DNA of 40,032 nucleotides, taken from Colwellia sp. D2M02. GTDB lineage: Bacteria; Pseudomonadota; Gammaproteobacteria; Enterobacterales; Alteromonadaceae. Location of the stretch: NCBI RefSeq assembly GCF_018860755.1, contig NZ_JAHKPW010000079.1, forward strand, positions 1 through 40,032, read 5' to 3'. Positions 38,194 through 40,032 of this stretch are shown one piece after another; the stretch's first letter is position 1; every line of letters begins with the position of its first letter. The notes under the pieces are model-generated. The model ran no database searches, was not told the origin of the DNA, and was given only the letters and a program-made list of their open reading frames with translations. The position numbers and the translations under genes are program-made.

Positions 38194-38221
38194 TAACTTT
38201 ACTAACTCAACACTAATGTAC

Positions 38222-38281
38222 TTAACCTGAACTCGGTTTAAAAGATATTTAACAAATTTAAATATTAGCAAAAATTATTTT
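38222..38281. repeat. 60-bp dispersed repeat, copy 1
   Basis: It begins TTAACCTGAACTCGG, contains ATATTT...AAATAT complementary arms and matches 39945-40004 with only a handful of substitutions. Confidence 0.8.
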
Positions 38282-38626: not shown

Positions 38627-39247
38627 CTAACCAAAAAATAACCGCCATAACCAGCCATGCTGAAACTCTTTCTCACAACTTTTTAACTGACTACTATAAC
38701 GACGCGCACGATCATCTACTTTGCGTGAAACTTTCATCAACCAAGGCTTCTTTTTGTAACTTTTACGTTTAAAGCCACCCCAGCCTTCGTGGTAATTTAA
38801 ATATTGATTGTAAGCATCCCACTTAGAAACACCATTTACTTTTTGGGTTTTATAAATAAACCAACCCATAAAATCAATTGCATCATCAAAATCTTCCCTG
38901 CTTGCCCAGTTATTGCCTGTTTCACGCGTATAGTCATCCCAGGTCATGGTTTTCGCTTGAGAGTAACCATAAGCAGTACTCACTCTTCCCCATGGAATAA
39001 ACCCTAAAAGATAATCTCTAGGAGGTAAGGCGTTATGGCGAAACGAGCTTTCTTGGTACATCATACTGATAGGCACATGAATCGGAACACCCCAGCGCTC
39101 TTGAGTTGCTTTAGCAGCATCATACCAATCTCTGTGCTCTCTAAATATTTCACAGATATTTTCAGGATTTTTAGGAGGAGGCGTTGCGCAACTTGAGAGT
39201 AATATTACGCTTAACGTACTTGCCGTAATGGTTTTAAATTTAAACAT
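38627..39247 (-). CDS. Transglycosylase SLT-domain lipoprotein
   Basis: This 206-residue protein has lipobox LLSSC (Cys20). An SLT-like lytic transglycosylase domain carries the probable catalytic Glu66 in MMYQESSFR, followed by AYGYSQAKTMTWDDYTRETG and a YLNYHEGWGGF segment. It would cleave peptidoglycan glycan strands from the outer membrane. The Lys/Arg-rich C-terminus is typical of small members. The Shine-Dalgarno sequence is weak. It is transcribed away from the small-RNA array and bracketed by two copies of the 60-bp repeat. Confidence 0.87.
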   Translation of the reverse strand: MFKFKTITASTLSVILLSSCATPPPKNPENICEIFREHRDWYDAAKATQERWGVPIHVPISMMYQESSFRHNALPPRDYLLGFIPWGRVSTAYGYSQAKTMTWDDYTRETGNNWASREDFDDAIDFMGWFIYKTQKVNGVSKWDAYNQYLNYHEGWGGFKRKSYKKKPWLMKVSRKVDDRARRYSSQLKSCEKEFQHGWLWRLFFG

Positions 39248-39358
39248 AAAAAATCAACTAACTTACAGGTAGTTAAGATAATGCCAGAACTCATGACACA
39301 TTGCATAAAAATAATTTAAGGAAAAAACAAATAAAATGGAACTAAATGAAAATACCAT

Positions 39359-39431
39359 ACTCTTACTTAACAGTAATGTTATTCCCTTAATGTTTCATGT
39401 TTTATACGCTCCATTGTGAGCGTATTTTTTT
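39359..39431 (+). ncRNA. Putative small RNA, array copy 1
   Basis: A unit of about 73 nt starts at ACTCTTACTTAACAG. It contains a small hairpin (TAACA/TGTTA, 39368-39381) and the C-rich stretch TTCCCTTAATGTTTCATG. It ends in a terminator: ATACGCTC (39404-39411) pairs with GAGCGTAT (39418-39425) and seven T follow. The transcription start is not established. Confidence 0.55.
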
Positions 39432-39532
39432 GCCTAAAATTCAGTATGTCGTATTTAAACTGAATAAAATTAAAAATTTAGCTATTTTACTCAATAAAAG
39501 TAAAATTAAATTGAACTAACTAGCAAGACTAC

Positions 39533-39600
39533 ACTCTACTTAACAGTAATGTTATTCCCTTATCATGTTTTTATACGCTCCGTTGTGAGCGTATTTTTTT
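39533..39600 (+). ncRNA. Putative small RNA, array copy 2
   Basis: Nearly identical to copy 3. The terminator stem ATACGCTC (39573-39580) / GAGCGTAT (39587-39594) is followed by a T run. It has a one-base deletion (ACTCTACTT) near its 5' end, and TCATG directly follows the CCCTTA. Confidence 0.55.
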
Positions 39601-39701
39601 GCCTAAAATTCAGTATCTCGTGTTTAAACTGAATAAAAATAAAAATTTAGCTAACTTACTCAATAAAAGTAAAATTAAATTGAACTAACTAGCAAGACTA
39701 C

Positions 39702-39770
39702 ACTCTTACTTAACAGTAATGTTATTCCCTTATCATGTTTTTATACGCTCCGTTGTGAGCGTATTTTTTT
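39702..39770 (+). ncRNA. Putative small RNA, array copy 3
   Basis: Same architecture as copy 2, with terminator stem 39743-39750 / 39757-39764 and a T run. The upstream TTGAAC box and spacer are identical to those of copy 2. Confidence 0.55.
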
Positions 39771-39849
39771 GTCTAAAATTGGCCAAAACCTACTATTTAC
39801 ACTTAAAATAAAAAAATTGAATGTTTTTTGAACTAATTAGAATGTAAGC

Positions 39850-39921
39850 ACTCTTATATTAGGAGTAATGTACTCCCTAGTGTTTCATGTTTTATACGCT
39901 CCTTAGTGGGCGTATTTTTTT
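39850..39921 (+). ncRNA. Putative small RNA, diverged array copy 4
   Basis: The most diverged unit still keeps the architecture. Its 5' hairpin is GGAGTA/TACTCC (39862-39867 and 39871-39876), followed by CCCTAGTGTTTCATG. Its terminator is ATACGCTC (39894-39901) / GGGCGTAT (39908-39915), where one A-to-G change turns a pair into G-U and so keeps the stem. Seven T follow. Confidence 0.55.
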
Positions 39922-39944
39922 GCCCTCATCTCATGCCATAGTAG

Positions 39945-40004
39945 TTAACCTGAACTCGGCTTAAGAGATATTTAACAAATTGAAATATCAGTAAAAATTA
40001 CTTT
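39945..40004. repeat. 60-bp dispersed repeat, copy 2
   Basis: Same orientation as 38222-38281. The arms GATATTT and AAATATC can pair. Together the two copies bracket the DnaA boxes, the SLT gene and the small-RNA array. Confidence 0.8.
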
Positions 40005-40032
40005 TATGAACCTCTAGCTTGATAGTTTTTCT

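Follow-up and report, generated by a model that had tools for sequence, protein, structure and literature searches.

A tandem array of predicted sigma-E-controlled small RNAs at the micA address in Colwellia

The window analyzed here, a 40,032-nucleotide stretch of DNA from Colwellia sp. D2M02, contains four tandem units (39339-39431, 39513-39600, 39682-39770 and 39830-39921), in each of which a promoter is followed by a short RNA body that ends in an intrinsic terminator. The array probably encodes sigma-E-induced, trans-acting sRNAs that are predicted to block the translation of receptors and to have expanded at the micA locus. In kind, it is best read as a sigma-E sRNA at the micA address that was amplified and retargeted. 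The anatomy of the units, their conservation, the match of their promoters to that of rpoE, the synteny of homologous loci and a conserved complementary site in an mRNA were computed here. An earlier note, made from the sequence alone, had proposed a multicopy regulatory RNA; it does not cover the link to sigma-E, the TonB-dependent receptor target or the gshA/micA position.

A repeat search gives start-to-start spacings of 169, 170 and 151 nt, and the matches of one unit in a BLAST search of its own genome are exactly the four places of the array, which confirms the four tandem periods claimed earlier. Stretches common to the aligned units are a C-rich stretch, ATGTTTT/GTTTTTAT and a terminator followed by T7; the alignment thus bears out the C-rich stretch and T7-ended terminator reported for every unit. 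Units 2 and 3 are indeed near-duplicates (98% identity over a 91-base query), and the A-to-G change described in the terminator stem of unit 4 appears in the alignment as U-A to U-G, which is compatible with pairing. Two core blocks are separated by a six-base segment that reads AUGUUU in unit 1 and GUGUUU in unit 4 and most relatives, and that is missing from units 2 and 3. An SLT_4 transglycosylase-domain gene (38627-39247, minus strand; PF19489, 2.8e-82) is divergent from the array and serves as a synteny anchor. Because the window is an entire contig, which stops at 40032, the array may extend past it. A 64-nt direct repeat (38218-38281 and 39941-40004, 89% identical, TTAACCTGAACTCGG...) flanks the SLT_4 gene and the array region.

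The predicted sRNAs lie on the plus strand and end with their terminators. They comprise 60 nt in unit 1 (39372-39431, within a model match at 39337-39431), 56 nt in unit 2 (39545-39600; match 39511-39600), 56 nt in unit 3 (39715-39770; match 39680-39770) and 59 nt in the diverged unit 4 (39863-39921; match 39828-39921), and so are shorter than the transcripts of about 70 nt that had been expected. Starts were placed 7 nt past the -10 element, by using the distance from -10 to +1 of micA in the E. coli sequence, where we take the 5' end of MicA to be GAAAG. The four RNAs are more stable than their dinucleotide shuffles, with folding z values of -4.30 (unit 1), -4.20, -4.20 and -2.30. With these starts, the 5' halves of units 2 and 3 are mostly unpaired, and a hairpin around or adjoining the C-rich stretch remains in units 1 and 4; in unit 4, part of the stretch is inside a GAGUA/UACUC hairpin. 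A 5' hairpin in each unit, as proposed in the earlier note, is not upheld: its 5' arm lies in or before the predicted start, and RNAalifold predicts no consensus pair for 40 type A units (the window's kind, defined below), partly because the stems are hard to align. For 20 type B units the same program keeps the terminator stem, in which two-sided changes occur in at least one sequence for 5 of the 15 predicted pairs.

Terminator hairpins of at least 5 bp and -4 kcal/mol or better are found in 125 of the 133 type A units that have a run of six or more T (137 units in all) and in 24 of 26 type B units (34 in all). The 7-mers preceding the T-run number 48 distinct sequences in type A and 5 in type B. 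Across genera, the core is conserved, and the sequences of the promoter spacer and the terminator vary. A micro-ORF, AUG-UUA-UUC-CCU-UAG, is present in many units, but was rejected by eye because it is absent from units 2 to 4 and from relatives with indels.

Units 1, 3 and 4 carry GAACTA and TCTTA separated by 16 nt (39339-39365, 39682-39708 and 39830-39856, plus strand). By pattern match these are sigma-E-type promoters, in agreement with the general form of a GGAACTT-like -35 element, a spacing of about 16 nt and a TC..A -10 element, and unit 1 shows the layout found upstream of rpoE. In unit 2 (39513-39539, plus strand), GAACTA-N16 is followed by TCTAC, in which one base of the -10 element is lost; it does not match TCWKA and may be weak. 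A repeated TTGAAC box had been noticed before and taken as a sign that each unit has its own promoter. The promoter per unit stands, and the plain -35 reading gives way to a sigma-E-type -35 element (GAACTA) at 16 nt from TCTTA. An ordinary sigma-70 promoter was rejected in view of the recurring pair of GAACTW and TCTTA at this distance.

The sigma-E-type pattern has 8 matches in the 4.01-Mb genome, 3 of them inside the array, and a reversed-pattern control has 20, so the pattern by itself is not special and only its clustering is. Twenty-five genomes, 16 in the genus and nine outside, were searched for RpoE. All 16 have GAACTT-N16-TC[TC]TA upstream of rpoE, ending 75 to 96 nt before the RpoE match; among the nine, four have a close equivalent, one has a variant further off and four have none. 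The sRNA units and the rpoE upstream region share the same promoter elements at equal spacing.

Conservation of the promoter was evaluated with a core-only search (TTCCCTTAGTGTTTCATG, up to 3 substitutions) of the collected loci, since alignments A2 and A3 were selected by regular expression and cannot show it. Of 103 distinct core copies, 99 have a sigma-E-type promoter within 75 nt upstream, compared with 247 of 20,000 random 75-mers from the same loci (a control that includes some array positions), and all 103 have a run of at least six T within 75 nt downstream. These counts, with a core conserved across genera, support in silico the multicopy regulatory RNA of the earlier note; for 29 loci (L005-L033), which were fetched by similarity to a unit that included the -10 element, the promoter test is only partly independent. 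For the SLT_4 loci, retrieval relied on the protein alone. Upstream of SLT_4, a sigma-E-type promoter occurs on the array strand in 62 of 80 loci and on the opposite strand in 1 of 80, and a complete unit under a strict rule (promoter, TCCC, T-run) in 55 of 80. According to their record names, the 62 loci include 8 of 11 from Idiomarina and Pseudidiomarina, 0 of 10 from Shewanella and 54 of the other 59, chiefly from Colwellia, Cognaticolwellia, Thalassotalea and Litorilituus. Near-miss units are visible by eye in some of the 18 promoter-negative loci (L048, L075 and L097).

The gene that converges on homologous arrays is gshA (TIGR01434, 3e-178 and 5e-185 in two loci). It is present in 69 of the 80 SLT_4 loci, always with its 3' end towards the array, and in 8 of the 11 others the available DNA ends early. 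In the D2M02 genome, gshA is out of view because the contig ends. E. coli micA is likewise convergent with gshA, ending 8 nt from the gshA 3' end, and has luxS on its other side; its position beside gshA is also described in the literature (PMC4618604; PMC2956633, both in part). By position and orientation relative to gshA in homologous loci, the array occupies the micA address. A gshA C-terminus also lies beside unit L431 of genus g19 (E 3e-4) and beside L434 of g13 (2e-6), and none was seen in the remaining short stretches (401 bases for L436).

The sRNA family is multicopy in Colwellia and related genera, with a maximum of 16 model matches per genome (E 0.05), although some matches in the richest genome are partial, promoterless units. 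Homologous arrays combine type A with type B (UGAAAGC..CUCCCUGGACUGCUUUC), which is usually farthest from SLT_4 in the arrays read. In the D2M02 genome no model match to type B was found, and the contig end may have removed one. A DNA search with a unit finds matches in 33 of 39 genomes of the genus, D2M02 included, and in 0 of 108 other genomes; the best matches of the SLT_4 protein are named Colwellia records. Family-wide, model R1, which has no structure term, matches at most 139 of 295 genomes (39 of 52 genera) and model R2 at most 120 of 295 (27 of 52), both upper bounds, as many matches have E values of around 1e-3 to 1e-2 and were counted without inspection. No published description of this family was found in the titles and abstract openings among the matches listed, a search that lies mostly outside the subscription literature.

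Some copies are dispersed, with a promoter and terminator of their own; in those inspected, promoter and core are both preserved. In L058 (C. psychrerythraea), L060 (C. demingiae) and L074, promoterless units occur about 110 nt apart between or after full units, with an altered core (ATTCCGCCC, ATTCCACTC and ATTCCAGCG) and a terminator that is mostly kept. At L217 and L224 of genome G011, the terminator of a dispersed type A copy appears to be followed directly by an IS630-like element (DDE_3 transposase). The element was rejected as a carrier, as it appears outside the units, beginning after the terminator.

Because the core contains UUCCCU, ribosome-binding sites were suspected as targets, and the pairing of UCCCU with such sites that had been suggested is supported in silico by a conserved complementary mRNA site. 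One TonB-dependent receptor mRNA, for a protein that begins MSSKTFKKG, carries at its ribosome-binding site AAACGUG..UAAGGGAA, the complement of the core UUCCCUUA...CAUGUUUU. Pairing involves two blocks, UUCCCUUA with UAAGGGAA and CAUGUUUU with AAAACGUG. In a table of the best 30 orthologs, from 54 genomes with a match, the site UAAGGGAAA is present in 12 of 14 from genera with strong type A matches and in 2 of 16 others, where the class is assigned by genus and some of the 16 may be paralogs. The two outside cases are G181 and a genome with type B and a less strong type A match, G050. Ahead of the start codon, the 12 orthologs share the block AACGUGUGUAAGGGAAAGUCG almost unchanged; in one it is two bases shorter, and others have a one-base change or an extra A. 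The proteins of the eleven besides that of D2M02 are nevertheless only 41-52% identical to the D2M02 receptor. The exceptions among the 14 are G014 and G021, in which the core of the type A units that were read is altered to UUCCCUGA. The second block in G014 is UAUGUUU against AAACAUA, replacing CAUGUUU against AAACGUG, a single event that looks compensatory.

The duplex of unit 3 (UUCCCUUAUCAUGUUUU) with the receptor start site has an energy of -19.4 kcal/mol, which 0 of 500 shuffled targets equal, and it ranks third among 192 start regions of the genome. Units 1 and 4 are less convincing than unit 3, with 6 and 32 of 200 shuffles as good. When each genome's own RNA is paired with its target, 0 of 200 shuffles are as good for D2M02 (unit 3), G041, G213, G199 and one G036 copy; the numbers are 5 for the other G036 copy, 6 for G010, 13 for G014, 19 for G151 and 60 for G021. 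Type B units give this target no support (129 of 200 shuffles as good in G050, 117 in G147 and 77 in G151). A 13-mer complement search that allowed one mismatch returned self matches and scattered others.

TonB-dependent receptor family matches number 42 in D2M02, 54 in G011 and 39 in G065. Start regions were used for 41, 34 and 35 of these, respectively, some probably with a wrong start because starts were chosen mechanically; from the D2M02 set, a non-receptor neighbor and a 965-aa protein of the window that lacks a Pfam match were removed. AGGG lies just upstream of the start in 13 of 41 receptors and 14 of 151 unselected genes in D2M02 (p 7e-4), and in 10 of 35 and 10 of 101 in G065 (p 0.012); in G011 the difference is not significant (7 of 34 and 8 of 83, p 0.13). 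Pooled over the three genomes, the counts are 30 of 110 and 32 of 335 for AGGG (p 1.2e-5) and 8 of 110 and 1 of 335 for AGGGAA (p 8e-5), with all of these p values nominal, as several patterns were tried. This enrichment is confounded because receptors have somewhat stronger ribosome-binding sites generally: a control with what we take to be the anti-Shine-Dalgarno letters gives p 4e-4 in D2M02, 0.14 in G011 and 0.04 in G065.

In the proposed mechanism, envelope stress or misfolding of outer-membrane proteins would free sigma-E, and the units would then be transcribed. The resulting RNAs of about 56-60 nt would probably be bound by Hfq through their U-rich tail; an hfq gene is present, and the tail and a U-rich stretch ahead of the terminator are visible in the sequence. 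Through UUCCCUUA and, where possible, CAUGUUUU, the RNAs might pair with the ribosome-binding sites of TonB-dependent receptor mRNAs. Translation of the receptors would thus be blocked, and fewer proteins that burden outer-membrane assembly would be synthesized, as has been described for MicA and RybB of Salmonella, in which omp mRNAs decay faster (PMC1804206, in part). We infer transcription, sigma-E dependence, Hfq binding, the translational block and descent from micA. The array was probably amplified in the Colwellia lineage from one micA-like gene.

Descent from micA is likely, though not proven, and comparison with MicA itself gives a mixed picture. No Rfam family reaches its gathering score in the window, where the MicA model also lacks a match, and permissive matches in the window and relatives are scattered, with MicA not among them. 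The best of these, to suhB/mmgR (E 1e-4 on two relatives), is below gathering, was rejected as an assignment to a known family and probably reflects the shared UCCCU and terminator. Aligned to E. coli MicA, only 1 of 6 type A or B units reaches p <0.05 against dinucleotide shuffles (L046, 0.039). The array might therefore have the same anatomy and regulon and yet be unrelated to micA, its gshA neighborhood being a coincidence or a convergent use of a permissive site. We regard this as unlikely, if well short of negligible, because its position and orientation relative to gshA are those of E. coli micA, and because single-copy units do align to MicA (5 of 6 at p <0.05). These are L065 (0.002) and L078 (0.014) of Idiomarina, both beside gshA, L431 (0.006) and L436 (0.003) of genus g19 and L438 (0.010) of g23; L435 of g29 gives 0.098. 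Each of the last four loci holds one sRNA-like unit, with a sigma-E-type promoter and a stretch of the CAUCCCUG or CUCCCUGG type, and may be a single-copy relative of micA.

Other explanations dispense with mRNA pairing or with a functional RNA. High copy number, with up to 16 model matches, and U-rich stretches would suit a sponge or decoy, whose many short transcripts would sequester Hfq or another sRNA instead of pairing with mRNAs; this is improbable, given that the 18 nt of the core hardly vary and that an mRNA block complementary to it is kept in the same genera. The units could also be duplication remnants that only insulate neighboring genes, a redundant terminator array. Each is closed by a strong terminator, and promoterless units do lie between full ones in three loci, but the parts that are kept, also in the dispersed copies looked at, are the promoter and core, and it is the terminator sequence that varies, so we consider this very improbable. 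It is extremely unlikely that the unit is a mobile, MITE-like repeat that happens to carry a promoter and a terminator: the array keeps one address in most of the Colwellia-group loci examined, and although dispersed copies exist, two of them with an IS630-like element close behind, this element appears to begin beyond the terminator, outside the unit.

The preferred reading, a sigma-E sRNA amplified at the micA address, can be extended, tentatively and with somewhat less than even confidence. In the Colwellia lineage, amplification of a single micA-like gene, in tandem and dispersed, may have given up to about 16 model matches and two or more seed classes, among them A (UUCCCUUA..CAUGUUUU) and B (CUCCCUGGA). 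These might divide the TonB-receptor mRNAs between them and co-evolve with receptor ribosome-binding sites, with copy number tracking receptor richness. To our knowledge, the known sigma-E sRNAs (MicA, RybB, VrrA and MicV) are represented by one or a few genes per genome. If the reading is true, gene amplification has enlarged the sigma-E sRNA scheme in this lineage and turned it on TonB-dependent receptors, dozens of which are encoded in these bacteria. The gradation in copy number, from one in Idiomarina to many in Colwellia, might then serve to study the duplication and divergence of sRNA genes and the way in which they track their targets.

The array resembles MicA in its convergence with the gshA 3' end, sigma-E promoter geometry, size class and UCCCU stretch, and in outer-membrane-protein mRNA targets (PMC1804206 and PMC4618604, in part), which for the array are only predicted. 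It differs in being tandem and multicopy, in having SLT_4 rather than luxS as divergent partner, in its 5' end and seed extension, in its predicted TonB-dependent receptor target and in the lack of an Rfam match. MicA is placed in Enterobacteriaceae, with a core part in Lactobacillus, in part of a 2015 MicA review, and a homolog in Bordetella is given in part of a 2025 paper (PMC12235514). RybB, VrrA and MicV are also envelope-stress-regulated repressors of outer-membrane proteins, as the array is predicted to be, but excerpts of PMC1804206 and PMC7602753 report no tandem arrays for them. LhrC1-5 of Listeria are multicopy, respond to cell-envelope stress and block Shine-Dalgarno sequences with a UCCC motif; the analogy is functional only, as they have a Gram-positive host, LisRK control, a length of 111-114 nt and three C-rich motifs (PMC4132741, in part).

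In a further receptor, which begins MYNNSK... or MYQSNK..., the start codon is preceded by GATCCAGGGAGT or by a slight variant of it (L265 and L271 in D2M02, L325 in G011 and L393 in G065). This stretch is complementary over about 9 nt to UCCCUGGA(U/C) of type B, which makes the receptor a candidate type B target.
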